This document shows positions 2,672 through 62,207 of a stretch of DNA of 64,000 bases, piece after piece; within the stretch, counting starts at the first letter, position 1, and the number at the start of each line of letters is the position of its first letter. The stretch comes from Corynebacterium appendicis CIP 107643. GTDB lineage: Bacteria > Actinomycetota > Actinomycetes > Mycobacteriales > Mycobacteriaceae. The notes below the pieces were generated by a model that was not told the DNA's origin, did not search any database, and saw only the letters and a list, made by a program, of their open reading frames with translations. The position numbers and the translations under genes were made by a program. Location: NCBI RefSeq assembly GCF_030408415.1, contig NZ_CP046976.1, positions 2,084,372 to 2,148,371 of the forward strand. Direction: 5' to 3'.

Positions 2672-3367
2672 TTAAACCTTTGCGTGTGAGAGGGATAGCG
2701 CCGAGCGGTAGCGCGCGGCGATGATGTGTGCGAGATCCGCGCCTAGCGGTGCGGAGATGGACCCGGGCCACATTCGGTGAACCCGGTCCAGCAGCAACCC
2801 CCTCGTGACAAATAGCGGTAATAAATGCGCGTTCTCGTGGGCGACGGCGGCGATGCCGTCAGCGCCGACGAGCTCGCCGTGACCAGTCGCAGGAACGGTG
2901 GTCACTTCAATGCCAGTGAGCTTTTCGACGTCCCGACCCAGCTCAATCGTCTTCGCCGCCGCCGCCTCATTGGAGGTGCCCACGGGGTAGAGGACGATAT
3001 GAGAGGCACGTGGGCCGTCGATAAGCGCGCGTGCCGCGAGGACAGCCGCGACGTCGCGCCCTTGGCCCAGGCCTTCGGCGGCGATGAGCTCGAGCCCCGT
3101 GTCCTCGGTGGCCTCGGCGATCGCCTCGGGCACGTCGTGGGTGGCGTGAAATGCCTTGGTGAACAGGGTGGGCACGACCACGGCGCGGGTGTGTCCGCGC
3201 TCGGCGAGCTGGCGCGCGGCCGCGGTGAGGTCGGGGGCGTCGAACTCGAGGTGAGCGTCGATTCCCGTCACCCCCAGCTGGCGCGCCGCCGTCTGCGTGA
3301 GCTCGCTGACTCCCGGCTGCGCGCCTGGGTGGCGCGAGCCGTGCGAGAGCGTGATCAGTGCCGTCAT
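2672..3367 (-). CDS. cysY: Sirohydrochlorin ferrochelatase, CbiX/SirB type
   Basis: A 231-residue cytoplasmic protein of the CbiX family. It opens with MTALITLSHGSRHPG, where SHGSR carries the metal-inserting His, and a second module (about residues 120-225) resembles the first, as expected for the long two-domain form. It would insert Fe2+ into sirohydrochlorin to make siroheme for the sulfite reductase CysI in the same operon. C. glutamicum has a gene in the same position (cysY). The gene sits 4 bp after cysN and 3 bp before cysZ, so it is clearly co-transcribed. Co2+ chelation is the family alternative, but the sulfur-operon context argues for iron. Confidence 0.85.
   Translation of the reverse strand: MTALITLSHGSRHPGAQPGVSELTQTAARQLGVTGIDAHLEFDAPDLTAAARQLAERGHTRAVVVPTLFTKAFHATHDVPEAIAEATEDTGLELIAAEGLGQGRDVAAVLAARALIDGPRASHIVLYPVGTSNEAAAAKTIELGRDVEKLTGIEVTTVPATGHGELVGADGIAAVAHENAHLLPLFVTRGLLLDRVHRMWPGSISAPLGADLAHIIAARYRSALSLSHAKV
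3017..3026 (+). repeat. Decamer GTCGATAAGC
   Basis: Antisense within cysY, where the gene reads Leu-Ile-Asp as CTT ATC GAC. Confidence 0.6.
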
Positions 3368-3371
3368 GTTC

Positions 3372-4697
3372 TTACCTCAACCGAGTTCCCACGAGTCCCG
3401 CGGCAAGCGTGTTTCCGCTGGCCTGGTCGATGAGCAGGAAATTGCCCACGGCGCCGCGCGCGGCGTATTCCTCCACCGGCAGCTCTTGTGCAGTCTGGAT
3501 GGTCACGTGCGCGATGTCGTTGAGGCCGAAGGACTCCGGCGCGGTGTCGTCGGAGTTGTTCTCCGGGTTGCCGTCGATGTCCAGGACGCGGTCGACGCTG
3601 GCCACGCGTGCGCGCACGAGCGAGGAACCGTAGCGGAGCTTGACAGCCTTGCCCGCGGTGACGTCCTTGTCGGTGAGCCCCACGACCGTGCCGTGGAATT
3701 CCCGGACGAACTCCGGGTAGCCGTTAGCCCCAAGTTGTGCGGCACCGCACAACAAGTCGCCGCGGGCCAGGTCGATGTCGTCGGCGAGCCTCAGCGCGAT
3801 GGAATCGCCCGCGTTCGCTGTGGTCGCGCCGTCGAGGCCGTCGGCTGTGTCAATGTGCGTGACCGTTGTGGACTTTCCGTTCGGCGCGGTGACGGTGTCG
3901 CCGACGCTGATCGCGCCGGCATTCACCGTGCCGGCATAGGCGCGGTAGTCCGTGGCGTGCTCGCGCAGGACGTACTGGATATTGAAGCGGAACGGAAGGT
4001 CCAGCGCGCGACCGGAGTGCACCGGGATGGTCTCCAGCAGCTCGAGCACGCTCGGGCCCTCATACCACGGGGTCGCCTCGGAGCGCTCCGCGACGTTGTC
4101 GCCCTTCAGCGCCGAGATCGGCACGGCGTGCGGCTCGGCGATGCCGAGTGCCGTGGCGCGCTGCTCGAATTCGGTGCGGATGCCCTCGAAGACTTCTCCG
4201 GAGTAGTCCACCAGGTCGATCTTGTTCACGGCCAGGATGACCGTCTTCACCCCGAGCAGGCTCGCCACAGTGAGGTGGCGGACGGTCTGGGGCTTGATGC
4301 CGTTGCGGGCGTCGACAAGCAAGACGACGACCTGGGAGGTGGACATGCCCGTGACTGTGTTGCGCGTGTACTGCTCGTGGCCAGGGGTGTCGGCGAGGAT
4401 GAACGTGCGCTTGTCGGTGGCGAAGTAGCGGTAGGCGACATCGATGGTGATGCCCTGCTCGCGCTCGGCGCGCAGGCCGTCGACAAGCAGCGACAGGTCG
4501 AGGCCCTCAAAGCCGCGGTCGGCGGACGTGCGCTCGACGCTGGCCATTTGGTCGGCGAGCACCGACTTCGTGTCGTGCAGCAGGCGGCCGACAAAGGTGG
4601 ACTTGCCGTCGTCGACGGAGCCGGCAGTGCACAGGCGCAGCGTGGCGCGGTCCGACAGGACGCCGGTGGCGGTGGCGGTAGTTGTGGGTGCGCTCAT
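3372..4697 (-). CDS. cysN: Sulfate adenylyltransferase large subunit (GTPase)
   Basis: The 441-residue GTPase subunit of ATP sulfurylase, which with CysD makes adenosine 5'-phosphosulfate (APS) from sulfate and ATP. Visible GTPase boxes: P-loop GSVDDGKST (about residues 27-35), DTPGHEQ (G3) and NKIDLVD (G4); two beta-barrel domains follow, as in EF-Tu relatives. There is no fused APS-kinase (CysC) domain, which agrees with the APS-type CysH in this operon. The start codon overlaps the cysD stop by one base (TGATG), a translational-coupling arrangement suited to a 1:1 CysD-CysN complex. Confidence 0.95.
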   Translation of the reverse strand: MSAPTTTATATGVLSDRATLRLCTAGSVDDGKSTFVGRLLHDTKSVLADQMASVERTSADRGFEGLDLSLLVDGLRAEREQGITIDVAYRYFATDKRTFILADTPGHEQYTRNTVTGMSTSQVVVLLVDARNGIKPQTVRHLTVASLLGVKTVILAVNKIDLVDYSGEVFEGIRTEFEQRATALGIAEPHAVPISALKGDNVAERSEATPWYEGPSVLELLETIPVHSGRALDLPFRFNIQYVLREHATDYRAYAGTVNAGAISVGDTVTAPNGKSTTVTHIDTADGLDGATTANAGDSIALRLADDIDLARGDLLCGAAQLGANGYPEFVREFHGTVVGLTDKDVTAGKAVKLRYGSSLVRARVASVDRVLDIDGNPENNSDDTAPESFGLNDIAHVTIQTAQELPVEEYAARGAVGNFLLIDQASGNTLAAGLVGTRLR

Positions 4698-6692: not shown

Positions 6693-8365
6693 CGCAGAGC
6701 CTCCTCGTCCGCGCGCGCGACCCACGTGCGGAAGGTCTCGTCCCCGTCGCGCTGGTCCACGTAGTTTTGAACGACGCGCGTGACATAGTCCGTCAGCTCC
6801 GTCGACAGCACCTTGTGTCCGCGCAGCTTACGGCCGAAATTCGCGCCCTCACCGATCGTGCCGCCGAGGTGCACCTGGAAGCCCTCAACCTTCTCGCCGT
6901 TACCGTTGTCGACCATCTGGCCCTTCAGCCCGATATCGGACACCTGGTGGCGCGCGCACGCATTCGGGCAACCGTTCAACGAGATCGTGATCGGGCTGTC
7001 CAGATCGCCGAAGCGCTCCTCCAGCTCGTCCGCGAGCTCGATCGCGCGCGATTTCGTGGTCACATGCGCGAGCTTGCAGTACTCCAATCCCGTGCACGAC
7101 AACAAGCCGCGGCGGAACTCGCTCGGCTTCGAGTACAAGCCCATTTCTTCGAGGTCGCTTTGCAGCTTATCGACATCCCCCTGCTCCACCCCGAGCAGCA
7201 GCACCTCCTTGAACGGTGTGAAACGCAGATCGGTCACGCCGTACCTCTCCGCTAGGTCCGCCAGAGCGATGAGCTGTTCGCCGGACATGTGGCCCAGGGT
7301 CGGCTTGACGCCGATATAGGCGTTGCCGTCCTTCTGCTCGTGCACGCCGATGTGGTCGCGGTCGACAAGGTTACTCGGCGCGTGCGGGCCGTCCGGGAGC
7401 TTGTAGCCCAGGTACTCGTCCTCGAGCACCTGACGGAACTTCTCCACACCCCACTGGGCCACCAAGAACTTCAGCCGCGCACGGTTGCGCAGGCGGCGGT
7501 AACCGTAGTCGCGGAAAATGCGCACCACATTCGCCCACACCTCCGGCACCTGCTCCAGAGCCACGAAAGCGCCGAGGGACCGCGCCAGCATCGGGTTCGT
7601 GGACAACCCGCCGCCGACGTAGCACTCGAAGCCCGGGCCGAGCTCCGGGTGCTCCACGCCGATGAAGGCCAAGTCGTTGATCTCGTGGACGACGTCCTGG
7701 CGGGCGTTACCCGAAATCGCCGTCTTGAACTTGCGGGGCAAGTTCTGGAACTCGTCGTCGGTGACGATCTTCTGGATTTCCCGAATCGCCGGTGTCGCAT
7801 CCACAATCTCGTCTTTGGCGATGCCCGCCACCGGCGACCCCAGCACCACACGCGGCACGTCGCCGCATGCATCCCAGGTGTTCAAACCGTTGTCCTCGAG
7901 CTTCTCCCAAATCGACGGGACATCCTCGATGCGCACCCAGTGCAGCTGGATATTCTGCCGGTCCGTCAAGTCCACCGTGGACCGCGCGTAGTCGCGGGAG
8001 ATTTCGCCCACGGCGCGGGCTTGGGCGGTGGAGCAGATGCCGCCATCGAAACGAATGCGCATCATGAAGTACTTGTCCTCCAAGACGCTGTTGTCCTCGC
8101 CCGTGAATTCTCCGCCGAGATTCTGCTTGCGCTGGGTGTACAAGCCGAGCCACTTGAAGCGCGGGTACAGGTCCTCGCGGTCAATCGAGTCAAAGCCGCC
8201 CTTGGAGTAGGTGTCGATGACGCGCTGCTTCACGTCCAGCACCCGCGATTCCTGCTTGATCTCCTCGTCATGGTTGAGAGGTGCCGTGCCGTCGATCTTC
8301 CACTGCCCCTCCGGTTTGGGCTTGCGGGACGGGCGCTTGCGCGCCGTTGTCGTGGTAGCTGCCAT
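6689..8365 (-). CDS. cysI: Ferredoxin-dependent assimilatory sulfite reductase
   Basis: A 558-residue siroheme/[4Fe-4S] enzyme reducing sulfite to sulfide in the cytoplasm. Cluster ligands are visible as CTGLEYC (CX5C) and GCPNAC (CX3C) in the second half, with the sulfite/nitrite reductase half-domain DRQNIQLHWVRIED near residue 140. I start at ATG 8365, preceded by GAGGAGG at good spacing; an upstream in-frame ATG (8434) would add 23 residues that look unlike the family. It is the first gene of the overlapping cysIXHDNYZ operon and diverges from the fpr2-like gene. Possible McbR-type operators lie upstream. Confidence 0.95.
   Translation of the reverse strand: MAATTTTARKRPSRKPKPEGQWKIDGTAPLNHDEEIKQESRVLDVKQRVIDTYSKGGFDSIDREDLYPRFKWLGLYTQRKQNLGGEFTGEDNSVLEDKYFMMRIRFDGGICSTAQARAVGEISRDYARSTVDLTDRQNIQLHWVRIEDVPSIWEKLEDNGLNTWDACGDVPRVVLGSPVAGIAKDEIVDATPAIREIQKIVTDDEFQNLPRKFKTAISGNARQDVVHEINDLAFIGVEHPELGPGFECYVGGGLSTNPMLARSLGAFVALEQVPEVWANVVRIFRDYGYRRLRNRARLKFLVAQWGVEKFRQVLEDEYLGYKLPDGPHAPSNLVDRDHIGVHEQKDGNAYIGVKPTLGHMSGEQLIALADLAERYGVTDLRFTPFKEVLLLGVEQGDVDKLQSDLEEMGLYSKPSEFRRGLLSCTGLEYCKLAHVTTKSRAIELADELEERFGDLDSPITISLNGCPNACARHQVSDIGLKGQMVDNGNGEKVEGFQVHLGGTIGEGANFGRKLRGHKVLSTELTDYVTRVVQNYVDQRDGDETFRTWVARADEEALR
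7165..7174 (-). repeat. Decamer GTCGATAAGC
   Basis: Within cysI, read as Val-Asp-Lys with GAT for Asp. The only perfect copy preceded by T instead of C. Confidence 0.6.
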
Positions 8366-12230: not shown

Positions 12231-12250
12231 GCACGCTTATCGACGTCCCG
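12231..12250 (+). repeat. 20-bp direct repeat, left copy flanking the ABC pair
   Basis: Matches 15934-15953 at 18 of 20 positions and contains the decamer GCTTATCGAC. It begins two bases after the pstS-like stop codon. Confidence 0.5.
12235..12244 (-). repeat. Decamer GTCGATAAGC, intergenic
   Basis: The only perfect copy outside a gene, directly after the pstS-like gene and about 17 bases before a TAGGCT element. Confidence 0.6.
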
Positions 12251-12302: not shown

Positions 12303-13975
12303 ATGGAACTAGTGCGCCTGACCGGGAGGTTCAGCAGGCCCTACGCGGGTTTGATCGCCGCGGTGGTCGTGCTGCAACTTCTGTCCACTCTGGCCACGTT
12401 GTATCTGCCGGATTTGAATGCGGACATCATCAATAACGGCGTCGCGCAGGCTGACGTGCCGTATATCCGCCGCACCGGCCTGGTCATGCTGGCTGTGTCG
12501 CTGGTGCAGGTCGCCGCGGCTGTGGCTGCGGTGTGGTTCGCCTCGGCGGCAGCGATGCGCACCGGCCGCGATATCCGTCGGGCCGTCTACGACAATGTCA
12601 GCCGCTTCACTTCCGAGGACATGTCGCACTTCGGCGCGGCGACCCTGACCACACGCGCGACGAACGATGTGCAGCAGGTGCAGATGACCACGCTGCTGTT
12701 CTTCAATTTCATGGTCACCGCCCCGATCATGGCCGTCGGCGGCGTGATCATGGCGCTGCGCCAGGACGCGGGAATGTCGTGGCTGGTCATCGTGGCTGTC
12801 GCGGTGCTCGCTGTCGTCGTGGCGGTCATCGCGGCGCTGCTCATGCCACTGTTCAAGAAGATGCAGCAAAAGCTCGACAACATCAACGGGCTACTCCGAG
12901 AGCAGATCGCCGGCATCCGCGTGGTCCGCGCCTTCGGACGGGAGGACTTCGAAACGGAGCGCTTCACCGACGCCAACACCGCGTTGACGAAGCTGAGCCT
13001 GAATATCGGCCGCGTCTTCGTCACGATGTTCCCCGTCATCATGCTCATCCTGAATCTCGCCACCGCGGCGGTCCTCTGGTTCGGAGGCCACCGCGTCGAC
13101 CAGGGTCTCGTCGAGATCGGTTCGCTCACCGCATTCATGCAGTACCTGATGCAGATCCTCATGGCCGTGATGATGGGCGTGTTCATGCTCATGATGCTGC
13201 CGCGCGCCATTGTGTGCGGCCGCCGCATCTCGGAGGTGCTGCGCTACGAACACACCGCCCCGCCGGCGGAACAGGCGGACACCCCGGCGGCAGAGCCCGG
13301 AGTCGTCGAATTCCGCGGCGTCACCTACCGATACCCCGGTGCCGAGGAGCCCGTGCTCAAAGACATCGACTTCACCGCCCGCCCCGGAACCGTCACGGCG
13401 ATCATTGGCTCCACGGGCTCGGGGAAGTCGACGCTCATGGGTCTCATCCCGCAGCTCTACTACCCCACCTCCGGCCAGGTCAGCGTGGGCGGAAAAGTCG
13501 GCATGGTCCCGCAGAAGCCGTGGCTCTACCGCGGCACCGTCGCTTCCAACCTGCGCGTGGGCAAGCCGGACGCCACCGAAGAGGAAATGTGGGAGGCTCT
13601 GCGCACCGCCCAGGCGCACTTCGTCGACGACCTCGTCATGCCCATTGCCCAGGGCGGCACCAATGTCTCCGGCGGGCAGCGCCAGCGCCTGTGCATCGCG
13701 CGCATGCTCATCGCGAACCCCGACATCTTCCTTTTCGACGACTCCTTCTCCGCCCTCGACGCCGTCACCGAAGCCACACTACAAAAGGCCATGACCAGCT
13801 ACACCGCGGACAAGACGGTGCTGGTGGTGGCGCAGAGGGTGGCGTCGATAAGCGATGCGGACCAGATTCTCGTGATGGAAGCCGGCGAAATCGTCGCACG
13901 AGGAACCCACGACGAGCTGATGCGCACGAGCACGACCTACCGCGAGATCGAAGCGAGCCAGAAGCAGGTGACCCG

Positions 13976-13979: not shown

Positions 13980-15928
<1,949 letters not shown>

Positions 15929-15933: not shown

Positions 15934-15953
15934 GCACACTTATCGACGCCCCG
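15934..15953 (+). repeat. 20-bp direct repeat, right copy flanking the ABC pair
   Basis: 18 of 20 identical to 12231-12250; it carries a one-base variant of the decamer (ACTTATCGAC at 15938-15947) and begins 5 bases after the exporter stop. Confidence 0.5.
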
Positions 15954-18360: not shown

Positions 18361-18990
18361 GTGATGAATCAGCCTCCGCATTCTCCGCGCAACCAGTCTG
18401 GGCCGCAACAAAGCGGCGGCGATCTTGTCCGCTTGTCGGATGTGGATCGTTCGGACGCGGTGGCGCGGCTGAGTTACGCGCTGGGCGAAGGGCGGCTGGA
18501 CAGCGACGAGTTCAACCGCCGCTGCGAGCAAGTTGAAGCGGCGACCACCCGGCGCGACCTAGTGCCGTTGTTCCGGGACTTGCCGGAGCAGCAGCGCCAG
18601 GAGATTGCGGAGCAGACCTTCACGCGTAGCGAGATCGAGCGGGCCCGCGCGAACGGGAAGAACACGCGCCTGGGCATTTTCCTCCTGGGTTCGATGGCGT
18701 CCTTCGCGGGGGCGGTGGGGTTGGCCGCGGCGACGGGCGCCGCCACATGGATCATGCTCCTGCTCATCATTCCGGCGCTGTTCACGATTCTCTACATCAT
18801 GAAGGCGGGCCCGGACAGCTGGTATGCTCCGAGCCCGCGGCAGCTGGAGCGGCAGAGGTTCCGGGAGTTGCAGACGGCGAGGAAGATGGAGGAGGAGCGT
18901 CGTAAAGCGGAGCGCAACGTGCAGCGTGACCGGCTGACCGGCGACGCGATGGACTTCGCGCAGCGTGCGTTGAATCGTTTCAACAAATAG
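18361..18990 (+). CDS. DUF1707 domain membrane protein
   Basis: A 209-residue protein. Residues about 20-70 form the DUF1707 module (LVRLSDVDRSDAVARLSYAL...GRLDSDEFNRRCEQ), a small domain found at the N-terminus of many actinobacterial membrane or regulatory proteins. Two membrane spans follow (about 105-145) and a basic, probably coiled-coil C-terminus (about 155-209). The function is not known for the family. GTG 18361 fits a leaderless transcript; the adjacent ATG 18364 is the alternative. The stop is 27 bp from the alaT start, separated by a hairpin-forming sequence, so it may share a transcript with alaT. Confidence 0.8.
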   Translation: MMNQPPHSPRNQSGPQQSGGDLVRLSDVDRSDAVARLSYALGEGRLDSDEFNRRCEQVEAATTRRDLVPLFRDLPEQQRQEIAEQTFTRSEIERARANGKNTRLGIFLLGSMASFAGAVGLAAATGAATWIMLLLIIPALFTILYIMKAGPDSWYAPSPRQLERQRFRELQTARKMEEERRKAERNVQRDRLTGDAMDFAQRALNRFNK

Positions 18991-26966: not shown

Positions 26967-27025
26967 CGCGGGCACCCCCTCGTCTCTCGCTTCTCGACGT
27001 CTCCTTCCAGATCCTATCCCCCTGG

Positions 27026-47481: not shown

Positions 47482-47485
47482 TGTT

Positions 47486-50400
47486 CTAGTTCACCTCGGC
47501 GATCCATTCGGCGATGTGCTTACCCACGATCCCCACCGCGGGTTCATCCACAACCGCCAGGTGATCGCCTGGCAGCTGCACGATAGTCAGGTCCTCCACG
47601 ATAGCGCCCCAGCCTCCGTCCGGGTCGATCTCCGCGTAGGCGGGCTCGAGCATGATCGCGCCGTCGTGCATGCGCTCCGCGCGGAACAGCAGGACCGGCA
47701 CGTTCACCTCAGCCCAGCGCTGCATGTCCACATTGGCCAGGATCTGGTTGTCCACGAACGAGGCGCGCTGGTGCTCCAGCACGCCCGCGGCGAGGCCGTG
47801 CTCGGCGGCGTCAGTGGTGGCGAGGAAATCGGCGAGCATCTGCAGCATCGCGTCCTCGCCCGCGGTTTCGAGCAGCTCGTACGGCACCTCGAAGTCGAGG
47901 CCGTAGGTCTTTTTCGCGAATGCGGCGTAGCGCTCCCAACGCTTCTTCGTTTCCTCCGGGGTATCCGGAGTCGGGTTCGACGGCTGGGTGGTGTCCAGCA
48001 AAGCGATGAACTTCACTGGGATCTGAATGTCCGAGCGATTCTCCAGCTGGTGCGCGACCTCGTAGGCCAGCGCACCGCCGAAGGACCAGCCGGCGAGCAC
48101 GATCGGCTGACCGGCGGAAAGGCGCTCGATATCCGCGATGTAGGCAGCGGCGCGCTCTTCGAGGCTGCCCTCGAGGCGCTCAATGCCGTAGACCGGCACA
48201 TTGGCCGGCAGGCGACGGGTCAGCGGCTGGTACACAGAGCTCGACCCACCAGCCGGGTGGAAGAGGAATACCGACGGCGTGGTCTCGTCGGTGCGCTCGC
48301 GCAGGACGCGGACATTGCCGTCCACCGGGGTCTCCAGTCCTTCGCGCACGGTGTTGGCCAGCGGCTCGAGCGTCTCGGCTGCGAGCACGTCGTCGGCGCT
48401 GACCTCGATGCCGGAGCGCTCAGAGAGATGCGCGGCGATCTTGTCGGCCTGCTCGCGGGTGATGTCCGGCAGCGGGGACGTCACGCCAGCCGCGGCAGCA
48501 CCGGCGTGCTTCGCCCAGGCGCCGAAGACCATGCGCTCGGACGCGTCGCGTGGCGCAACGCCCACACCCGCTGCCGGAGTACCCGCTCCCTTCGCTTGCT
48601 CGACCGCCTGCGCAGGATCGCGGTTCGGGTCGTTCTCCGCCATCGGCTGCGGCGCGTCGGACTGGCCGGCGACGGCCTCTTCGACCATCGTGATCACGTC
48701 GGCGACAGAAGCGTCGCGCAGCGCCTGGACCTGCAGCGGCGGGATCTGGAAGTCGTTCTCCACGCGGTTCTTGATGCGCATGCCCATCAAGGAATCCAAG
48801 CCCAGATCGATCAGTGGCAGCTCATCGGGCAGGTCGTCGACGTCGTAGCCCATCGACTCGGAGACAATGGAGCGCAGGCGTTCCTCGACGGTCTCCTTCT
48901 CCGGGTCCCAGCGGACCACGTCGACATCGTCGGTCGCACCGCGGATCATCTGCTCGCGGGCGGCCTTCACCTCCGGCGCCGGCTGCGGGGCATCGGTCAC
49001 GCCCGGAAGCGACACCTGGCCCAGATCCAGCGTGGACGCGAAACCCTCGGCGACGAGGACCGCGCCGTTGTACACACTGATGGTGAGTCCGCCCAGCCCG
49101 CGTCGGATCATGGTGGTCAGCTCGCCCGCGGCCGGCAGCGGCGCGCGTTCCTCGGCCGCCACGACGGTGGCATTCGCGTCGACTTCAGCGGCGGCAAGTT
49201 CCACGACCTGCATCGCGGAGAAGATTTGGTCGGCCGGTGCCGCGTAGACGACCGTGCCGTCTGGCAACGTCACCTTCGGGCCCAGCGGGCCGGCGCCAGA
49301 CGAACTCGGGCGCGCCGAGGTCCACAGTTCGTTGCGGTGCAGCGGGGTGTGCGGCACGTCGGCGCGCACACCGTCGCCAGCCAGCGCGGCGAAGTCGACG
49401 GGCATGCCGGAAACGTACAGCTTGGAGGCGAGATCCAGCAGGGTGGCCACCTCGTTCTCCTTGCGCTTCAGGGAGAACAGCAGCTGCGCGTCGGGCTTGC
49501 CCACGGTGAACGCGGTGTTCATCATGCCCATGGTCGCGACCGGGTTCGGGGAGATCTCCACCAGCGTCGTGTGGCCGGCGGCGAGCGCGGCCTCCGTCGC
49601 GTCTTGGAAGAGCACCGGCTGGCGCGTCATGCGGATCCAGTAATCCACATCGTGGATCGTCTCGCCCGCCTGGCGTGTGCCGTCGACGGAACCGAAGTGC
49701 GGAATGCGCAGCGGTTTCGCCTCAATTCCGGCAATGTCGCCGGCGAGCTCGCCGAGAATCGGGTCGAGCATGCTCGTGTGCCCCGCGCCGCGCACATTCA
49801 GCTTGCGCGCGAATTTGCTCTCTTCCTCGAGCGCCGCGACGAGGTAGTCCACGGCCTTTCCGGGGCCGCCCACCGTGGTCATGCCGGGGCCCGCGTACAC
49901 AGCAGGTTCGACACCGGCGGCCTCAGGATGCTTATCGACGAAGCCTTCCAGCTCCTCCCTCGACAGCTCCACCACGGCCATCGCGCCTTCTTGGTCGGTG
50001 CCTTCGACGGTCTTCTCGCCCTCGCCCATCAGGCGTGCGCGGGTGCAGGCGATGAGCATCGCGTCCTCGGCGCTGATGCCGCCGGCCGCGTAGGCCGCGG
50101 CGATCTCGCCCATGGACATGCCCATCGTGGCGGCCGGTGTGATTCCGTAGCTGGCCAGCAGGTCGGTCAGCGCGATCTGGATCGCGGTGACGGTGACCTG
50201 GCCGGTCTCGGTGTCGTAAGTCTGCTCATCGTCGAGAATGATGTCCAGCATGGACCAGCCGGACTCGAAGTCGACGACTTGGTCCAGCTCCTGCATCCTC
50301 GTGCGGAATGCCGGGGACAGCTCCACCAGGGGTTTGACCATCTTGCGGTGCTGCGAACCGAAGCCGGAGTACACGAACACGGGGCCGGCCGACGACGGCG

Positions 50401-52261
50401 AATCCGCCGACGCCACTCCCTGCGTCACCTTTCCTTCCGCGACGTAATTCAAGCGCTTGCGCGCCTCGTCGACGGTGGAGGCCGCGACGACGGCGCGCGA
50501 ACGGCCGTGGTTGCGCCCAGCCAGAGTGCGGGCGACTGCGCGCAGGTCCGATTTGTCGTTGAGCGACTCCGCGACAGCGCTAGCGAGCTCGCGGCGGCGC
50601 GACGGCAGCAGGCCGGAGACCGGCAGCAGGACCAGGTCCGGGTTGGATGGGTCGATGAGGCCAGCATTCGGTTCACGCTCCGGCACCTCGTAGTCGGAGG
50701 CGTTGAAATCGCTGACGACGATGTGCGCGTTCGTGCCGCCGAAGCCGAAGCCGGACACACCCGCGATACGGCGCCCGGAGTATTCGGGCCACTCGCGAGG
50801 ATCCTCGACGACCTCGATCTTGGTGGCGTCGAAGTCGATGAACTTGTTGCCCTCGGTGAAGTTGGCCGTCGGCGGGAGGGTGCCGCGGGTGAATGCTTCG
50901 AGCACCTTGATCATGGCCACCACACCTGCGGCGGACTCGGAGTGGCCGATATTGGACTTGGCCGAACCGAGCAGCAGCGGGTTCGCGTCGGCGCGGTCCA
51001 CGCCGAGGACCTGGCCGAGGGCGGTGGCCTCGATCGGGTCGCCGAGAGCGGTGCCCGTGCCGTGGGCCTCCACGAGGTCCACATCCGCCGGGTCGATGCC
51101 CGCGTCGGCGTACGCACGGCGCAGCACGTCCACCTGCGCTTCCGGGTTCGGGGCGGTCAGGCCATTGGAGTGGCCGTCGGAATTCGTGGCAGTGCCCTTG
51201 ATCACCGCGAGCACTTCGTCACCGTCGGCGATGGCGTCCTCGACGCGCTTGAGCACGATGAAGCCGGCTGCCTCCGCGCGGACGAAGCCGTCGGCGTCAT
51301 CGGAAAACGCGCTGATCTTGCCCGTGGGGCTAATCACGCCGAGCTCAGCGAATGCCGTGGAGATGAACGGGGAGGCGAAGATATTCACGCCGCCCGCCAA
51401 CGCCACATCGGCTTCGCCGCCGCGCAGGGCACGCACCGCTTGGTGCACAGACACCAGCGAGGACGAGCATGCCGTATCCACATTCATCGACGGGCCGCGG
51501 AAATCGAAGGCGTACGAAATGCGGTTCGGAATCACTGCGCTGGAGGTGCCCGTCAACGCGTACGGGTGCGCCGACGCCGGGTCGGAGGTGATGAGCATGC
51601 CGTAATCGTTCGACGACGAGCCGACGAAGACGCCGACGGATTCGCCGCGCAGCCCGCTTGCGGGAATGTGCGCGTCCTCGAGCGCCTCCCACGCCAGCTC
51701 CAGCATGATGCGCTGCTGTGGGTCCATATTCTCCGCCTCGAGCGGAGACAGGCCGAAGAATTCATTGTCGAAGCTGCGGATATCGTCCAGGTAACCGCCC
51801 TGGACATTCTGCTCGCGCATCTTCGCGGACATCACCGGATCCTGCGAGTACTCGCTCCAGCGGCCTTCCGGCAGCGGGCCGGTGACGGACTGGCCGGACA
51901 CCAGCAGGTCCCAAAACTCGTCCACATTGCCTGCACCGGGGAAGCGTCCGGCGCGGCCGACGATGGCGATATCGCCGGATCCGATGGCGCTGCCGCGGTT
52001 GGCAGGGACGGCAGCCGTCGATAAGCGTGCGCCTGTGGGCGCGAGGAGACCGTGCGCGAGCGCTTCGACCGTCGGGTACTGGTACGCGACCGTCGGGTCG
52101 AGCTTGATGTTCAGCAGGCGCTCGAGCTCGCCGGAGAGAACGACGACATCGCGCGAGGAAAGGCCGAGGTTGTCGAGCGGGACGGACGGATCGACCGTGT
52201 CAGCCCCCGTGGCATCCGCGATCCACGACTGCAACCAGGTGGTGAGCTCGCTTTCGGTCAT
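47486..52261 (-). CDS. pks13: Polyketide synthase Pks13, mycolic acid condensing enzyme
   Basis: A 1591-residue modular type I synthase that condenses the meromycolyl-like chain (from FadD32) with a carboxylated chain (from AccD3) and hands the product to trehalose. Domains read in order: N-terminal ACP (phosphopantetheine Ser36 in NLGLSS), ketosynthase with catalytic Cys265 (VDTACSSS) and His in HGTGT, acyltransferase with Ser716 in GMSMGE, second ACP with Ser1157 (LGLDSL), and a thioesterase-like domain with Ser1393 in GWSFGG. This full layout matches Pks13 of the Corynebacteriales. ATG 52261 follows an AAGG-containing site. Two decamer repeats lie inside. Confidence 0.97.
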   Translation of the reverse strand: MTESELTTWLQSWIADATGADTVDPSVPLDNLGLSSRDVVVLSGELERLLNIKLDPTVAYQYPTVEALAHGLLAPTGARLSTAAVPANRGSAIGSGDIAIVGRAGRFPGAGNVDEFWDLLVSGQSVTGPLPEGRWSEYSQDPVMSAKMREQNVQGGYLDDIRSFDNEFFGLSPLEAENMDPQQRIMLELAWEALEDAHIPASGLRGESVGVFVGSSSNDYGMLITSDPASAHPYALTGTSSAVIPNRISYAFDFRGPSMNVDTACSSSLVSVHQAVRALRGGEADVALAGGVNIFASPFISTAFAELGVISPTGKISAFSDDADGFVRAEAAGFIVLKRVEDAIADGDEVLAVIKGTATNSDGHSNGLTAPNPEAQVDVLRRAYADAGIDPADVDLVEAHGTGTALGDPIEATALGQVLGVDRADANPLLLGSAKSNIGHSESAAGVVAMIKVLEAFTRGTLPPTANFTEGNKFIDFDATKIEVVEDPREWPEYSGRRIAGVSGFGFGGTNAHIVVSDFNASDYEVPEREPNAGLIDPSNPDLVLLPVSGLLPSRRRELASAVAESLNDKSDLRAVARTLAGRNHGRSRAVVAASTVDEARKRLNYVAEGKVTQGVASADSPSSAGPVFVYSGFGSQHRKMVKPLVELSPAFRTRMQELDQVVDFESGWSMLDIILDDEQTYDTETGQVTVTAIQIALTDLLASYGITPAATMGMSMGEIAAAYAAGGISAEDAMLIACTRARLMGEGEKTVEGTDQEGAMAVVELSREELEGFVDKHPEAAGVEPAVYAGPGMTTVGGPGKAVDYLVAALEEESKFARKLNVRGAGHTSMLDPILGELAGDIAGIEAKPLRIPHFGSVDGTRQAGETIHDVDYWIRMTRQPVLFQDATEAALAAGHTTLVEISPNPVATMGMMNTAFTVGKPDAQLLFSLKRKENEVATLLDLASKLYVSGMPVDFAALAGDGVRADVPHTPLHRNELWTSARPSSSGAGPLGPKVTLPDGTVVYAAPADQIFSAMQVVELAAAEVDANATVVAAEERAPLPAAGELTTMIRRGLGGLTISVYNGAVLVAEGFASTLDLGQVSLPGVTDAPQPAPEVKAAREQMIRGATDDVDVVRWDPEKETVEERLRSIVSESMGYDVDDLPDELPLIDLGLDSLMGMRIKNRVENDFQIPPLQVQALRDASVADVITMVEEAVAGQSDAPQPMAENDPNRDPAQAVEQAKGAGTPAAGVGVAPRDASERMVFGAWAKHAGAAAAGVTSPLPDITREQADKIAAHLSERSGIEVSADDVLAAETLEPLANTVREGLETPVDGNVRVLRERTDETTPSVFLFHPAGGSSSVYQPLTRRLPANVPVYGIERLEGSLEERAAAYIADIERLSAGQPIVLAGWSFGGALAYEVAHQLENRSDIQIPVKFIALLDTTQPSNPTPDTPEETKKRWERYAAFAKKTYGLDFEVPYELLETAGEDAMLQMLADFLATTDAAEHGLAAGVLEHQRASFVDNQILANVDMQRWAEVNVPVLLFRAERMHDGAIMLEPAYAEIDPDGGWGAIVEDLTIVQLPGDHLAVVDEPAVGIVGKHIAEWIAEVN
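49930..49939 (-). repeat. Decamer GTCGATAAGC
   Basis: In pks13 (acyltransferase region), read Val-Asp-Lys. Confidence 0.6.
52017..52026 (+). repeat. Decamer GTCGATAAGC
   Basis: Antisense in pks13 between the first ACP and the ketosynthase; the gene reads Leu-Ser-Thr with the rare codon TTA. Confidence 0.6.
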
Positions 52262-52341
52262 GCTTTAGCCCTACGTCCTTTTCTCGATTGATTGATTCTT
52301 ACGGCCTATCTATCGGGCTCGGCGCCCGGCGCGTTAACGTC

Positions 52342-54123
52342 CTAGTTTTCTTGCAGGAACTTTGCGCGGTTGACTACGCGCGCGATCTTGCCAGAGCTGG
52401 AGCGCGCGATCTCATTCGGCGCGTAGAAGCGGACGACTTCCGGGCTGATGCCGTGCTTGTTGGACACCGCGCCGCGGATCGCGTCCTCGGCGAGCGCATC
52501 GGAGGCCTCGTCCGCGCCCTCGACGCGCTCGACGAGCAGCACGAGCTTTTCGACGTCCTCTCCCGGCACCGCGAACGCCGCCACCGAATCGGGGCGCACG
52601 TGGTCGGATGCCTCCATGACCGTCGCCTCGATATCCTGCGGGTAGTGGTTGCGGCCCGCGATGACCACCAGATCCTTCAAGCGGCCAGTGATGTAGAGGT
52701 GGCCCTGGTAGAAGGCGACGAGGTCGCCCGTAGCCAGCCAGCCGTCCTGGCCGCGCAGTGTGTTGCCGAAGGTCTGCTTGGTGTCGTCTTCACGCCCCTC
52801 GTAGCCTGCCGCTACGTTATCGCCGTGCAGCCAGAGCTCGCCGATCGCTCCCTCCTCGACCTCGTCGTGGGTCTCCGGGTCGACGATGGCGTAGCGCATG
52901 TCCGGCACGGGCTGACCGTTGGACGCGAACGGGATGCCGTCTTCCGCCTCGACGATGCGGCCGCGGCCGACCTCTTCGCGGTCGAAGTTCTTGAACAGCG
53001 GGCGCTCGTCCGTCTGCGGGGTCGACACAATGAGCGTCGCCTCCGCCAGGCCGTACGACGGGCGGATGACCTGCGGGTCCAGCTTGGAGGGGCCGAAAGC
53101 GTCCACGAAGGTCTCCACCGCTGCCTTAGTCACCGGCTCGGAGCCGACGATGATGCCGTCGAGCGCGGAGAAGTCGTAGTCTTCGGGGTTCTCCGGCGCG
53201 GCGTATCGGGCGGCGAGGTCGAGCGCGAAATTCGGCACGACGGTGTAGACGAAGGTCTCGTCCTTTTCGTCTTGCTCGCGTTTGGTGATCTGGTCGACCC
53301 AGCGCTTCGGCTGCTGGATGAAATCGCGCGGGCCCATCAGTTCGAATTCAATGCCCATGATGGTGACGAACACGGTGAGAATGATGCCCATGTCGTGGTG
53401 CAGCGGCAGCCACGTGGACAGGCGCAGCGGCATCTTCAGCTCGACTGCGTCGTAGATCTGCAGCACGTTCGTCAAAATCGCGCGGTGGGTCAGCACCACG
53501 CCCGCCGGGAGACGGGTGGAGCCGGAGGTGTACTGCAGGAACGCGACCTCGTCGACGGCATCGCCGTCAGCCGGCTCATCCGGCGCGGTCCAGGACTCGG
53601 CCAACGAATCCGGCAGCGCGTCGACGACGAGGATGCGGGGGCGCTCCGCGCGCGGGACCTCCGCGAAGAAGGCGCGCACGGCCTTCGCGCCGGCGTTGTT
53701 GGTCAGCACCGCCGCGGCCTTGGAATCCTCGAGCACGGCGGTGAGCTGCTCGCCGTGGCCCGGCTCATTCGGGTCATAGAGCGGCACCGGCACCTGGCCG
53801 GCGTAGATCGCGCCCATGAAGGAGAAGATGTATTCCGGCGAATTCGCCGCCATGATGGCCACGCGGTCGCCTGGGGTGCCGGTCTGCTGCAGGCGCGCCG
53901 CGACAGCCTTGATGCGGGTGATCACCTCGTCGCGCGTGAAATCCACGGCGACACCATCGCGGTCGTCAGAGAAATCCCAGTAGCGCATCTGGTGCACCTC
54001 GCCGGTGCCCATCTCGGCGCTGCCCTTATAGAGCATCTCGCACAGCTGGAACAGGGACAGTTCCGGCGGCAGATCGATCTTGTCGTCGTCGTAGAACTGG
54101 TAGAGCAACTGCTCGAGGTCCAT
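52342..54123 (-). CDS. fadD32: Fatty-acyl-AMP ligase FadD32
   Basis: A 593-residue adenylate-forming enzyme that activates the long chain as acyl-AMP and loads it onto the N-terminal ACP of Pks13. The phosphate loop YTSGSTRLPAGVVLTH (about residues 190-205), a GSEPVT segment, YGLAEAT and the later WLATGDLVAFYQGHLYITGRLKD hinge motif are all visible; the FAAL class makes acyl-AMP rather than acyl-CoA. ATG 54123 follows AAGGAG, and the frame before it is antisense to the cutinase gene end. The gap to pks13 is 80 bp. Confidence 0.94.
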   Translation of the reverse strand: MDLEQLLYQFYDDDKIDLPPELSLFQLCEMLYKGSAEMGTGEVHQMRYWDFSDDRDGVAVDFTRDEVITRIKAVAARLQQTGTPGDRVAIMAANSPEYIFSFMGAIYAGQVPVPLYDPNEPGHGEQLTAVLEDSKAAAVLTNNAGAKAVRAFFAEVPRAERPRILVVDALPDSLAESWTAPDEPADGDAVDEVAFLQYTSGSTRLPAGVVLTHRAILTNVLQIYDAVELKMPLRLSTWLPLHHDMGIILTVFVTIMGIEFELMGPRDFIQQPKRWVDQITKREQDEKDETFVYTVVPNFALDLAARYAAPENPEDYDFSALDGIIVGSEPVTKAAVETFVDAFGPSKLDPQVIRPSYGLAEATLIVSTPQTDERPLFKNFDREEVGRGRIVEAEDGIPFASNGQPVPDMRYAIVDPETHDEVEEGAIGELWLHGDNVAAGYEGREDDTKQTFGNTLRGQDGWLATGDLVAFYQGHLYITGRLKDLVVIAGRNHYPQDIEATVMEASDHVRPDSVAAFAVPGEDVEKLVLLVERVEGADEASDALAEDAIRGAVSNKHGISPEVVRFYAPNEIARSSSGKIARVVNRAKFLQEN

Positions 54124-57645: not shown

Positions 57646-57716
57646 CCGGGCCCGGTCTTCGTGATGAAGTTTAAGTTTCACTTGAGACTTTACAGGGTGA
57701 CACGCCGCGAACACAG

Positions 57717-57771
57717 AAAAACCCTGGGAAACAATGACCACAGCTGTATCTACAGTCACCGTCGCCCAGGG
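57717..57771 (-). terminator. Rho-independent terminator after the second mycolyltransferase
   Basis: CCCTGGG (minus strand 57771-57765) pairs with CCCAGGG (57728-57722), followed on the minus strand by TTTTT (57721-57717). An inner CTGTA/TACAG hairpin stacks inside the long loop. Confidence 0.65.
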
Positions 57772-57784
57772 CTAGCGTAGGTTC

Positions 57785-58798: not shown

Positions 58799-58895
58799 GT
58801 GTCCACCAATCAGATAGTCAGAAAAATTCCGGATTACACACAGGTGTATCGCAAAGCGTTACCGTGATGTTATCAATGGCTGAATTCTTAATCCA

Positions 58896-60701
58896 CTAGT
58901 CCGCTGACCAGGCGATGCGCTGGCCGGACAGCCCGACATCCTCGCCGCGCCCAACGCGGTTCAGTGTCTCCTCGTCGAGATACACCGCCGGGTCCGACGC
59001 GACTTCCAGGGTGCGCCCCGCTGTCAGCGCGAATTTCATGTTCTTCAAAAACCGTTCCGCGCTCATCGGCTCACGCGAGGTGGCCAGTAGTTCCGCGATC
59101 TCGTCCGTGCGCAGCGCCGCGCGCGCTTCACGCACTTTCTGCTTATCGACGTGCCCGGGCAACCCCTCCACGTCCACCGCCGTGTCCGCGAATTTCCAGT
59201 GCCCGGGGAGTTGCTTGTCGTGGCCGATGCGGCCGCCCTCGATGCGCGGCTGCCGCGCCGCTAACGGAGTGGCCAGGCCGACATCGTCGAGCACGCGCAT
59301 CTCCAAGTCCGAGTTCGCGCTCACCATGCCCAGGTTGATCAGGTATGCCGTGGGCGCCAGATTCTGCAGGTCCGAATCTTTGCTCACGCGGTCCAGCGGC
59401 AGCCAGTCGTAGACAAACGGGTCCTTCTGCTTCAGGATGATCGCGAGCGCGCCAGAGTTCTCCTCCTCCGCTTTAGCGACACCTTCTGTCCACCCGTTCA
59501 TTAGGTCGCTGGCCAAGAAGTCCTCGGCGTACCGCGGCGGGTTGCCCGATTCGCGCAGCAAGACCGCCGTCCAGAATTCGCGCTCGTCGACGATAGTGAG
59601 GTTCTCCGGGCCGTCCTCGAAAGGCTCGAAGCCCAAGTCGTGGCCACGCGCGACAACGATGCCCGCCCACACTGCCACCGCTGCGGCGCAGATGCCTCCG
59701 ACTAGCGTCAGCGGCACCGCCGCCACCGGCAGCAGCATGGCGAACAGTGGCAGGAGCACCATGCGTCCGTGCATGAAGTCGCCGCCCACGCGCACCACGT
59801 AGAGCAGGTGCAGCAGCCCGCAGCCGACAGCGACCGCCGCGACGAGCTTCTCCCGCGACGACAGGCGCAGCGCCCAGTAGATTCCGAGCGCCGCCGCGAC
59901 GAGCACCGGCGCCCACAGCGCGTACGGGCTCACCGTGTCCCACACGTAGCGCGCACCTGTCCCCCAGTACGCGCCCGACGCCGACTTCGCCACCGCGGTG
60001 TGCGGCGTCAGCAGGCCGTAGTAGCCCATGCGGAAGATCTCGTAGCCCGCCGACACCGGCAGGGCCGCCGCCAGGATCAGCCCGATCTGCTTCCAGTCGC
60101 GCCAGTTGACCGCCAGCAGGACAATCCCGGTGATGCCGCCGTAGAGCGCCAGCTCGGGCCGGACCAGCCACGACAGTCCAGCCCAAAACGCCAGCCACAG
60201 TTGGGCCCGCCCGCCTGCCGACCACCTGACGAGCAGCGCCCACCACACTCCGATCCAGGCCAGGGACAGTCCCCACTCCAGGCCGGAGGTGGCGAAATCC
60301 CGCGCCGGCGGCAGGGCCAGGTAGATGAGCGAACCAAACGGTGCGACGAGACCTGGGTGCACCCGCTGCCACAGCTTTCCCGACCCCAGCGTCGCCGCGA
60401 CCACGCCGATCACGGTCAGAATGAGCGCCAGCCACATGGCCACGTCTTCCAGCCGCATGCCGGGCACCCAACTGAACGCCGCGATGAGGTACTGCCATAG
60501 CGTCGAGGTGTTCGTCTCCACACGCTCGCCGATATTGAAGACCGGCCCGTTCCCGGCCAGGATGTTGCGCACGGTGCGCAGAACGATCAGTCCGTCGTCG
60601 CTGATCCAGCGGCGGGCCCACCCGCCCGAAAAAGCGAGAACGCCCGCTAGCGCTGCCGAAAAGAGCAGCGATATGCGGGCGCGTTTTTCCATGCGCGACA
60701 T
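58896..60701 (-). CDS. aftB: Terminal beta-(1->2)-arabinofuranosyltransferase AftB
   Basis: A 601-residue GT-C membrane transferase that caps arabinan with beta-(1->2)-arabinose, the site later esterified with mycolates. About ten spans in residues 10-400 precede an outer C-terminal domain. The first outer loop reads WISDDGLIVLRTVRNILAGNGPVFNIGERVE, with the Asp-Asp pair expected for a GT-C enzyme, and matches the AftB family. The start ATG 60701 overlaps the ubiA stop region (TAATATG); an ATG at 60692 is the alternative. It belongs to the glfT2-pap2-ubiA-aftB run conserved in mycobacteria. Confidence 0.92.
   Translation of the reverse strand: MSRMEKRARISLLFSAALAGVLAFSGGWARRWISDDGLIVLRTVRNILAGNGPVFNIGERVETNTSTLWQYLIAAFSWVPGMRLEDVAMWLALILTVIGVVAATLGSGKLWQRVHPGLVAPFGSLIYLALPPARDFATSGLEWGLSLAWIGVWWALLVRWSAGGRAQLWLAFWAGLSWLVRPELALYGGITGIVLLAVNWRDWKQIGLILAAALPVSAGYEIFRMGYYGLLTPHTAVAKSASGAYWGTGARYVWDTVSPYALWAPVLVAAALGIYWALRLSSREKLVAAVAVGCGLLHLLYVVRVGGDFMHGRMVLLPLFAMLLPVAAVPLTLVGGICAAAVAVWAGIVVARGHDLGFEPFEDGPENLTIVDEREFWTAVLLRESGNPPRYAEDFLASDLMNGWTEGVAKAEEENSGALAIILKQKDPFVYDWLPLDRVSKDSDLQNLAPTAYLINLGMVSANSDLEMRVLDDVGLATPLAARQPRIEGGRIGHDKQLPGHWKFADTAVDVEGLPGHVDKQKVREARAALRTDEIAELLATSREPMSAERFLKNMKFALTAGRTLEVASDPAVYLDEETLNRVGRGEDVGLSGQRIAWSAD
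59141..59150 (-). repeat. Decamer GTCGATAAGC
   Basis: In aftB (outer C-terminal domain), read Val-Asp-Lys. Confidence 0.6.
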
Positions 60702-60702
60702 A

Positions 60703-61686
60703 TTAGCCCATGGCGGGCGCAACATAGACAGCCATGACGATTGCGAGGATCCACAGCAGCGCCAACGCCTGCAGGACTCGGTCCTCGAGCGCGATCTCGT
60801 CCGGCGCGCCGCCGTTGCCGCTGTCCACTTCCGCAGCGTAGCGGAGGATGGCGATGATGAACGGCACCATCGAAATCTGGTACCACAGGCCCTGGCCTTC
60901 CTCGACGCCGTCGCTAAGCGTGAACCCCCACAGCGCGTACGACATGACCACGGCTGTGGCGGACAGCGTCCACACGAAACGCAGGTAGGTCTGCGTGTAG
61001 CCCTGCAGCGACTTGCGGATTTTCGCGCCCGTGCGCTCGGCGAGCAGCAGCTCCGCGTAGCGCTTTCCGGAGGCCATGAACAGCGAACCGAACGCGGCGA
61101 CCAGCAGGAACCACTGCGACAAGTCGATGCCCGCCGCGACGCCGCCGGCCATAGCGCGCAGCATGAAGCCCGAGGACACGAGCGCGATGTCGATCACCGG
61201 GATGTGCTTCCAACCGAAACAGTAACCCAGCTGCAGCGCGATGTAGACGCCGACGACCGTCGCCAGCGCCGGGCCGTCCGTCGCCAGGAACGACAGGCCG
61301 ATCGCGAGCGCGATGAGCACGACCGACATGACGTACGCCAGGTTGATCGGCAGCATCCCCGAAGCGATCGGGCGGAACCGCTTCGTGGGGTGCTCGCGGT
61401 CCGCTTCCACGTCGCGCGCGTCGTTGACCAGGTAGATCGAGGACGCGCCGAAGCAGAACACGATGAACGCCAGCGCGATATCGACGAAGGTGCGCGACGT
61501 GAACGAGTCCGCGCCCGCTGCCAGCGGCGCGGCGAGCACCAGGACGTTTTTGACCCACTGCTTCGGACGCAGACCTTTGATCATCGCGTCCGGCAAGTTC
61601 TTCGGAGCCGTCTTCGTCCGGTTGTAATCTACGCCCTCGGTGTGGGGCTCAGACTTCAGAAACGGCTCGTCTACTGGCTGTGTCAC
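60703..61686 (-). CDS. ubiA: Decaprenyl-phosphate phosphoribosyltransferase, UbiA family
   Basis: A 327-residue membrane prenyl-transferase family protein with about nine spans. The first Asp-rich site is YLVNDARDVEADREHPTKRFRP, the NDxxDxxxD motif that binds Mg-diphosphate, and a second acidic site follows near the middle (VIDIALVSSG). In mycobacteria the counterpart (Rv3806c) makes decaprenyl-phosphoryl-5-phosphoribose, the first committed step towards the arabinose donor used by AftB, AftD and other arabinosyltransferases. The start ATG 61686 overlaps the PAP2 gene by 4 bp, so the two consecutive steps are coupled. Confidence 0.93.
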   Translation of the reverse strand: MTQPVDEPFLKSEPHTEGVDYNRTKTAPKNLPDAMIKGLRPKQWVKNVLVLAAPLAAGADSFTSRTFVDIALAFIVFCFGASSIYLVNDARDVEADREHPTKRFRPIASGMLPINLAYVMSVVLIALAIGLSFLATDGPALATVVGVYIALQLGYCFGWKHIPVIDIALVSSGFMLRAMAGGVAAGIDLSQWFLLVAAFGSLFMASGKRYAELLLAERTGAKIRKSLQGYTQTYLRFVWTLSATAVVMSYALWGFTLSDGVEEGQGLWYQISMVPFIIAILRYAAEVDSGNGGAPDEIALEDRVLQALALLWILAIVMAVYVAPAMG

Positions 61687-62207
61687 GCTTGTTGCCTCTC
61701 AATATTGATCGCGGCTCGTGCCACCCCGATGCCAAGCAGTGCGCCGGCCAGGGTGTCCGTGGGGTAATGCACCCCCAGGACCATGCGGGAGGTCATCATA
61801 ATTGGGATTCCGGCGTACGGGAGTTTCGACCCGGTGATGTCGGCAAGGTGCACCATCGCGGCGCTTGTCGACGTCGCGTGCGAGCTCGGGAAACTCAACC
61901 TCGACGGGGTTCCCACGCCGATTTTCACCCGCGGATCATGCGGACGTCGCCGCCGGACAATACGCTTGAGCACCACCGACGCCGCATGCGCCGTGAACGC
62001 ACCCGCGCCCATGGCCAGCCACTTGCGCCGCCGTTGCTTATCGACGGCCGCGCCCGCCCCCGCGATACCCAGCCACCCCAGGGCATGCTCGCCGAAATGG
62101 CTCATCCCGCGGGCGGCGGGGAGGACGCATGGGGCGTCGAAAAGCGCGCCCTGAATGCGCTCGAGGACTTGCGCTTCCTTCTTATCCCACGAGTTCTTAC
62201 TGCTCAT
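61683..62207 (-). CDS. PAP2-family phosphatase (decaprenylphosphoryl-5-phosphoribose phosphatase candidate)
   Basis: A 174-residue small membrane phosphatase. The three PAP2 motifs are seen in order: KRIVRRRRPHD, SFPSSHATSTSA and SRMVLGVHYPTD, with the catalytic His residues in the second and third. The gene lies between ubiA and glfT2, as Rv3807c does in mycobacteria, where it is proposed to remove the 5-phosphate from the UbiA product. The overlap with ubiA (4 bp) and glfT2 (11 bp) supports this operon role, though the enzyme is not strictly required in mycobacteria. One decamer repeat lies within. Confidence 0.9.
   Translation of the reverse strand: MSSKNSWDKKEAQVLERIQGALFDAPCVLPAARGMSHFGEHALGWLGIAGAGAAVDKQRRRKWLAMGAGAFTAHAASVVLKRIVRRRRPHDPRVKIGVGTPSRLSFPSSHATSTSAAMVHLADITGSKLPYAGIPIMMTSRMVLGVHYPTDTLAGALLGIGVARAAINIERQQA
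62036..62045 (-). repeat. Decamer GTCGATAAGC
   Basis: In the PAP2 gene, read Val-Asp-Lys. Confidence 0.6.

Follow-up and report, generated by a model that had tools for sequence, protein, structure and literature searches.

The DNA analyzed here (the window) is a stretch of 64,000 nucleotides from Corynebacterium appendicis CIP 107643, positions 2,084,372-2,148,371 in a genome of 2,284,440 bases assembled as one contig (G000). Dispersed through it is a decamer, GTCGATAAGC, 15 exact copies of which had been listed in an initial annotation. An exact-word search of the window found every one of these copies, seven on the plus and eight on the minus strand as claimed. The decamer is preceded by C in 14 of the 15, again as described, the exception being the copy at 7165..7174 (minus strand). 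The two one-base variants that had been pointed out, at 15938 and 23575, do exist, but they are not the only ones, as the window has 31 in total; the spread of such variants (e.g., GTCGACAAGC) indicates that constraint is loose at the two middle bases. The G+C content of the window is 65.7%, not about 63%, and the expectation of roughly 0.1 copies becomes 0.16 under an order-2 Markov model. Genes were predicted with a simple home-made gene caller, by which two of the 15 copies (12235 and 62036), rather than a single one, lie outside genes; the copy at 62036 also falls inside an uncalled open reading frame (ORF) of 174 amino acids.

The suggestion that coding does not explain the decamer held up as well. 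A permutation of synonymous codons, under which protein sequences, the codon set of each gene, and copies lying outside genes stay unchanged, gave a mean of 2.69 and a maximum of 5 copies in the window (200 runs) versus the 15 observed. The observation is thus confirmed, and it is larger than first described: the true unit is C-R-TCG-NN-AAGC with a one-sided G-rich flank, rather than a fixed decamer.

Anatomy and sites of the signal

The window contains 46 copies of CGTCGNNAAGC, located by exact core search, the G-rich flank being the approximately 34 nt located 5' of each core on the motif strand. Cores that include the exact decamer read CGTCGATAAGC and lie at 3016..3026 (+; decamer at 3017), 12235..12245 (-; intergenic by our gene calls), 13843..13853 (+), 15174..15184 (+), 15786..15796 (-), 20437..20447 (+), 21789..21799 (-), 25568..25578 (-), 25850..25860 (+), 35108..35118 (+), 49930..49940 (-), 52016..52026 (+), 59141..59151 (-), and 62036..62046 (-; outside our gene calls). 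The core CGTCGACAAGC is found at 852..862 (-), 2605..2615 (+), 4310..4320 (+), 4478..4488 (+), 26357..26367 (+), 42389..42399 (-), and 61863..61873 (-), and CGTCGAGAAGC at 123..133 (-), 26989..26999 (-), 28281..28291 (-), 38956..38966 (-), and 47337..47347 (+). Two other spellings occupy four places each: CGTCGAAAAGC at 2920..2930 (-), 37886..37896 (-), 52545..52555 (-), and 62135..62145 (+), and CGTCGTCAAGC at 31865..31875 (-), 32516..32526 (-), 38888..38898 (+), and 40659..40669 (+). The remaining cores are CGTCGTAAAGC at 18898..18908 (+) and 19728..19738 (-), CGTCGTTAAGC at 19434..19444 (-) and 27647..27657 (+), CGTCGGAAAGC at 23768..23778 (-) and 62932..62942 (+), CGTCGCTAAGC at 31148..31158 (+) and 60909..60919 (+), CGTCGGTAAGC at 13987..13997 (-), CGTCGCAAAGC at 34871..34881 (-), CGTCGCCAAGC at 36503..36513 (+), and CGTCGCGAAGC at 44932..44942 (-).

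A larger sample of the same genome, consisting of the window and 20 spaced stretches (464 kb), was used to define the signal. It contains 119 decamers (60 plus, 59 minus), of which 118 have the preceding C and 60 have a G directly after the core. Changing single bases at the nine fixed core positions lowered the number of sites from 259 to 72 when A at base 8 became G, and to 31 or fewer for every other change. The two middle bases are free, AT being preferred in C. appendicis (120 of 272 CRTCGNNAAGC sites). The proposed resemblance to the DnaA box was not supported, because at the differing base C gives 259 sites and the DnaA-like G only 21.

With a frame-corrected null, the G excess at 230 CGTCGNNAAGC sites spans -35 to -2, with a matching deficit of C; A and T are little altered, and little or nothing is seen before -36 or past the core. 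The flank is a stretch of about 34 nt, starting at about -35 on the same strand, in which G stands in place of C. Between -35 and -4 on the motif strand, each of the three coding classes has 49-51% G versus 31-34% expected from codon position, and intergenic or partial copies have 44% versus 32%. The whole signal is thus approximately 46 bp long, oriented, and non-palindromic. A G-quadruplex was considered for the flank and rejected: GGG runs are fewer in the 259 flanks than in shuffles (626 vs. 838), a three-G pattern is at expectation (12 vs. 12.7), and a loose two-G pattern occurs 147 times versus 119. The flank is not a run-based quadruplex signal.

Distribution in C. appendicis and across the genus

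In the whole genome, the decamer occurs 589 times (284 forward and 305 reverse; reversed-word control, 3) and CGTCGNNAAGC 1,324 times (663 forward and 661 reverse; reversed control, 92). Synonymous shuffles, which had been proposed as a check, fail to reproduce such counts. Genome-wide resampling of synonymous codons predicted 27 coding copies in the 464-kb sample versus 217 observed, and the milder within-gene permutation gave a mean of 69.8 and a maximum of 82 (60 runs) versus 260. The signal also reshapes protein sequences: the tripeptide LID was found 92 times versus 39.5 expected from shuffled residues and VDK 63 times versus 22, and their reversed forms were at expectation (35 vs. 37.5 and 24 vs. 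23.2, respectively). Non-coding sites account for 40 of 260 (3 more are partial) versus 14% of bases. The mean spacing is 1,496 bp with a coefficient of variation of 0.88, which is near random or slightly more even.

Two of the 20 sampled stretches are poor in the signal, L045 with one site and L048 with two sites per 20 kb, and the other 18 have 8 to 17. L045 (G000:C1:800001-820000) encodes an integrase-core transposase, which we take to be of the IS3 type, a heavy-metal P-type ATPase, a metal-sensing repressor, and MerA, whose gene is 98.3% identical to copies on plasmids of C. maris, C. marinum, and M. luteus; it is an acquired island. The metabolic cluster of L048 (G000:C1:1100001-1120000) includes genes for an S-adenosylmethionine synthetase and for an anthranilate-synthase-like fusion; one ABC transporter reading frame recurs at its two ends, and L048 may be of acquired origin too. 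In 70.8 kb of two Corynebacterium plasmids, to whose hosts no dialect was assigned, there is a single site. Depletion in acquired DNA was thus seen in a few cases only (L045, L048, and the two plasmids).

The proposed counts in related genomes revealed that the decamer is genus-wide as well as genome-wide. It was matched in 148 of 151 Corynebacterium genomes, including that of C. appendicis, with counts from 0 to 689. In contrast, it is not enriched in any of 120 genomes from other genera of the order (top count, 11), in which CRTCGNNAAGC is near its control and at most about twofold above it, compared with about 12-fold in C. appendicis.

The second core base differs among species. We assigned 104 of the 151 genomes to a G-dialect (CGTCG.., CGTCGNNAAGC), nine to an A-dialect (CATCG.., CATCGNNAAGC), and 38 to neither, using thresholds of our own choosing (at least 250 G-type or at least 200 A-type words, the larger of the two deciding). 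Absolute thresholds were used because the reversed-word control understates the background of CATCGNNAAGC, motif-less genomes having about 30 to 90 copies versus about 5 to 35 in the control. The median G-dialect genome contains 1,090.5 G-type and 52 A-type words. Seven of the 38 genomes classed as neither may hold a weak signal: G041, G062, G120, G129, G132, and G133 with 101 to 134 G-type words, and G084 with 159 A-type words. One genome, G143, carries both spellings (1,337 A-type and 352 G-type). The preference for the middle bases also varies among species; for example, G001 has 1,618 copies of CGTCGNNAAGC but only 64 of GTCGATAAGC.

The G-rich flank accompanies both dialects. It is present at A-dialect sites of G006, G111, and G143 and at G-dialect sites of G004, C. 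appendicis, and 19 named loci, and it is weak in G099 and G048. It is absent at 59 chance copies of the core in non-Corynebacterium loci and small at 11 copies in motif-negative genomes.

The dialects were placed on a fadD32 tree of 41 rows, classed by thresholds that we set (22 G, 4 A, and 15 neither, including 3 outgroup rows). The four A rows, one of which is C. macginleyi, form one supported clade that is nested inside G-dialect species and adjoins C. curieae and C. yonathiae. Rows without the motif include those of C. jeikeium, C. glyciniphilum, and C. phocae. The nearest named fadD32 loci to that of C. appendicis are from Corynebacterium sp. MSK041 and C. meitnerae.

We then compared an A-dialect genome (G006) with a G-dialect one (G004) over 83.9 kb aligned at 80% identity, using guessed syntenic offsets. 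Of 84 A-sites in G006, 29 lie in stretches without a partner (L060-L063) and are not comparable, and 10 more are unaligned or gapped. The 45 aligned ones correspond to 24 G-sites, 3 A-sites, 4 sites that are one base off, and 14 other sequences in G004. Conversely, 40 aligned G-sites out of 107 in G004 match 24 A-sites, 3 G-sites, 3 sites one base off, and 10 others in G006. The dialect base was therefore switched at 24 of 27 sites kept in place, against a background of 144 of 679, which was derived from G006 CATC words whose remaining three bases are conserved (A retained in 535, changed to G in 144, and to C or T in 46). Smaller comparisons set the G-dialect species C. curieae against A-dialect kin: C. 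sp. ACRPS has A-sites at 3 of 7 aligned G-sites, an uncultured relative at 3 of 6, and C. macginleyi at 2 of 7. When one base changes jointly at many sites that otherwise stay intact, the pattern is difficult to account for unless a sequence reader has shifted its preference.

Conservation at orthologous positions, another check that had been proposed, turned out to be partial. A useful anchor across the genus is the mycolic acid cluster at 45934-54123 of the window, whose genes, judged by their protein starts, are presumably accD-like, Pks13-like, and FadD32-like. Of the 10 window sites around fadD32 that could be aligned, L076 has a motif core at 4 and L077 (C. meitnerae) at 6, where independent variation of nine bases at the mean identity would predict 11-13%. 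Those at 49930, 61863, and 62135 are kept in both loci, 60909 in L076 only, 47337, 59141, and 62932 in L077 only, and 42389, 52545, and 62036 in neither. Five of 12 sites of L077 are kept in L076 (30% expected), and sites of C. aurimucosum are kept in C. minutissimum (14 of 15; 51% expected) and HMSC078H07 (11 of 12; 26% expected). In the 20 of 380 ordered species pairs within our limits, 150 of 222 sites were kept versus 63.6 under uniform identity. However, the four control words with occurrences (five were tried) also exceed this null in sum (12 of 26 vs. 7.6); it is too lax, and orthologue conservation is given little weight here.

Other enriched words were encountered in two genomes. In G099 (L072-L075), overlapping words such as ATCCCCGCTCAC, unrelated to the motif, occur 13 times in 80 kb versus 0.02 expected, and the motif-negative genome G039 (L193-L196) has eight copies of CGGAAGGCAA in 80 kb versus 0.06 expected.

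Comparison with DNA uptake signals

The signal is amplified on both strands, has one-base dialects that switch in place, is scarce in the few stretches of acquired DNA examined, and extends asymmetrically beyond its core; together, these features recall the DNA uptake sequences (DUS) of Neisseriaceae and the uptake signal sequences (USS) of Pasteurellaceae. Sequence-specific uptake signals are reported only from these two families (PMC12616744). By analogy, the signal described here is probably a self-DNA recognition signal of the DUS kind that arose independently in Corynebacterium.

For DUS, Frye et al. describe about 1,900 10-mers in the genomes of meningococci and gonococci, dialects set apart by few bases in accordance with phylogeny, and five Neisseriaceae members without an obvious DUS (PMC3630211). 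The Corynebacterium signal resembles DUS in copy number (hundreds to thousands, far over expectation and on both strands), in dialects that differ by few bases and agree with phylogeny, as far as a tree with only four A rows can indicate, and in the existence of members without it. DUS distribution is atypical in mobile elements (PMC7371117). On the other hand, DUS is read by the minor pilin ComP, and the present signal differs from it in its unrelated sequence, the loose NN in its core, its 34-nt one-sided G-rich flank, and its host, a mycolic-acid Gram-positive with a Tad-type pilus.

USS has a nine-base core, a long, less conserved, one-sided AT-rich flank (up to about 32 nt in total), and two types (PMC12616744). 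A nine-base core, a long one-sided flank, and two types are found in Corynebacterium too, but here the flank is 5' of the core and has G for C rather than being AT-rich, the core letters are unrelated, and no helical phasing is visible by eye in the flank profile.

In the mechanism that we favour, a sequence-specific DNA-binding protein would recognize the approximately 46 bp of core (C-R-TCG-NN-AAGC) and flank and thereby skew the choice of extracellular DNA admitted by the Tad-type pilus, ComEA, and ComEC; the incoming DNA would then be recombined with DprA and RecA. Since signal-bearing DNA would be preferred, recombination with self DNA could keep and spread copies on both strands, and a change of the reader could split related species into G or A spelling at base 2. 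In this scheme, we infer the location of the reader in the uptake machinery, the increase of uptake by the signal, and the RecA step.

At the gene level, the host has components that such a mechanism would use. The C. appendicis genome carries a Tad-type locus with one T2SSE and two T2SSF proteins, a DUF4244 Flp-like pilin, and, following it, an ORF that is TadE-like by position, as well as a cluster of comEA, comEC, and what we take to be holA. All 151 genomes have ComEC and DprA, and 148 have T2SSE (145 of these above the curated cut-off), although T2SSE alone is no proof of a Tad pilus. In the actinobacterium Micrococcus luteus, transformation depends on tad genes (PMC4322843). The Pfam profile of TadE matched 0 of 151 genomes, and the TadE-like ORF of C. 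appendicis has no Pfam match, although it has weak relatives in other genomes; TadE could not be correlated with the motif.

Several observations weigh against the uptake-signal interpretation. First, motif-negative genomes keep comEC, dprA, and usually T2SSE, so that the machinery does not predict the motif; it permits uptake but does not prove it. Second, no residue of ComEA or ComEC separates the dialects (nine A rows vs. 42 or 43 G rows; G084, finally classed as neither, was omitted). Third, 38 of 151 Corynebacterium genomes lack a clear signal, whereas no Neisseria genome was without a DUS (PMC3630211). In addition, the two nearest named species retain only 4 and 6 of the 10 window sites that could be aligned, coding copies are antisense to the gene more often than sense (154 vs. 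63), and neighbouring sites alternate in orientation in the C. appendicis sample (147 vs. 92, P = 0.0005), an effect that is weak in G004 (P = 0.04) and not seen in four other genomes. Finally, no report of uptake or transformation in Corynebacterium was recognizable among the titles and abstract openings listed.

Two leads within the uptake machinery were rejected. A Ser in the ComEA hairpin of all five A rows first compared suggested K-to-S covariation with the dialect, which would have spoken for a reader there. In a comparison of more genomes (61 rows, four without a match: G042, G043, G089, and G138), however, the same Ser was found in G-dialect genomes G004, G008, G012, G036, G037, G065, G085, G093, G109, and G142, and two genomes then classed as A have Gln (G053) and Lys (G084). 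ComEC frames seemed longer in motif-negative genomes, yet the motif-positive G013 and G099 also have a long ComEC, and stop-to-stop lengths overstate the gene. Among the Tad proteins, for which only four A and eight G rows were compared, each has one to four dialect-separating columns versus five in a helicase control.

Alternative explanations and implications

In the sampled stretches, GC skew is positive in 9 of 11 before 1.14 Mb and negative in 9 of 10 after, which fits an origin near the contig start and a terminus near the middle. Orientations in the two chromosome halves are 50 plus/47 minus and 82 plus/81 minus in the 464-kb sample; the earlier view that the word is neither strand-biased nor similar to the FtsK-orienting polar sequences (KOPS) is thus supported, and the same lack of replication-strand bias characterizes DUS and USS.

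The alternative that survives best, which we nevertheless consider unlikely, is a Chi-like regulator: an AddAB- or AdnAB-type helicase-nuclease would read one strand and switch to RecA loading, and the dialects would follow the enzyme. Chi is a short, strand-specific, G-containing overrepresented word whose spelling can be species-specific, and the Corynebacterium signal is likewise strand-specific, G-rich, asymmetric, and present in hundreds to thousands of copies. However, Chi is biased in orientation with replication in E. coli, and known Chi sequences are much shorter than a footprint of about 46 nt. In a search that covered RecC (PF04257) but not AddAB or AdnAB, none of the 151 genomes gave a match, and hence no reader of the E. 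coli type was seen. It is the lack of orientation bias and the absence of RecC that disfavour Chi.

Rather more doubtful is a binding site for an abundant chromosome-organizing, segregation, or replication protein that needs sites each 1 to 2 kb. The near-random or slightly more even spacing and the similarity of coding and intergenic copies would suit such a protein. But a clear signal is missing from the 38 genomes, the C. jeikeium and C. glyciniphilum clades, and other genera, which argues against an essential housekeeping site; the dialects would have no obvious reason, and KOPS orientation is strongly replichore-dependent, unlike that of the present signal.

A signal at the level of RNA or transcription, in which Rho or another RNA protein would bind an unstructured, C-rich complementary transcript, is improbable. 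The antisense excess, which often places GCUU-NN-CGACG and, after it, a C-rich stretch in the mRNA, speaks for it, but the same flank is kept in sense and intergenic copies, and the antisense placement may only reflect a flank easily met by codons ending in C. Rho sites are also not known to have nine fixed bases.

The least credible alternative is an amplified word like the highly iterated palindrome HIP1, kept by mutational, methylation, or repair bias with no cell-surface role: HIP1 of cyanobacteria (GCGATCGC, without flank) is likewise genome-wide in part of a clade, and amplification limited to the genus with strong variation between species would fit, but the present signal is oriented rather than palindromic, and its dialects, 34-nt flank, and coordinated one-base switch point to a sequence reader. 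Of the candidates offered in the initial annotation, an uptake-associated word is thus in line with the explanation favoured here, and a HIP1-like word is not.

Returning to the uptake signal, we lean slightly toward a broader proposal, again by analogy. The signal would be the third independent self-DNA uptake signal and, in the literature searched, the first outside Proteobacteria; mycolate Gram-positives, which have their own outer membrane, would filter DNA by a 46-bp tag at or near the Tad pilus, and its spelling would set sexual isolation among species. No report of such a signal in Corynebacterium was recognized among the listed titles and abstract openings of the open-licence literature, where the decamer string appears in eight papers, all unrelated by title; reports elsewhere are possible.

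If the proposal is true, this would be a third case of an uptake signal, unrelated to both DUS and USS. It would imply that Corynebacterium takes up DNA in nature. The signal would provide a tool for gene transfer within the genus and would help to mark islands of acquired DNA, and pairs of sister species could be used to test how species barriers depend on a DNA reader. Even with another function, a 46-bp signal with about 1,000 copies per genome that reshapes proteins needs explaining.

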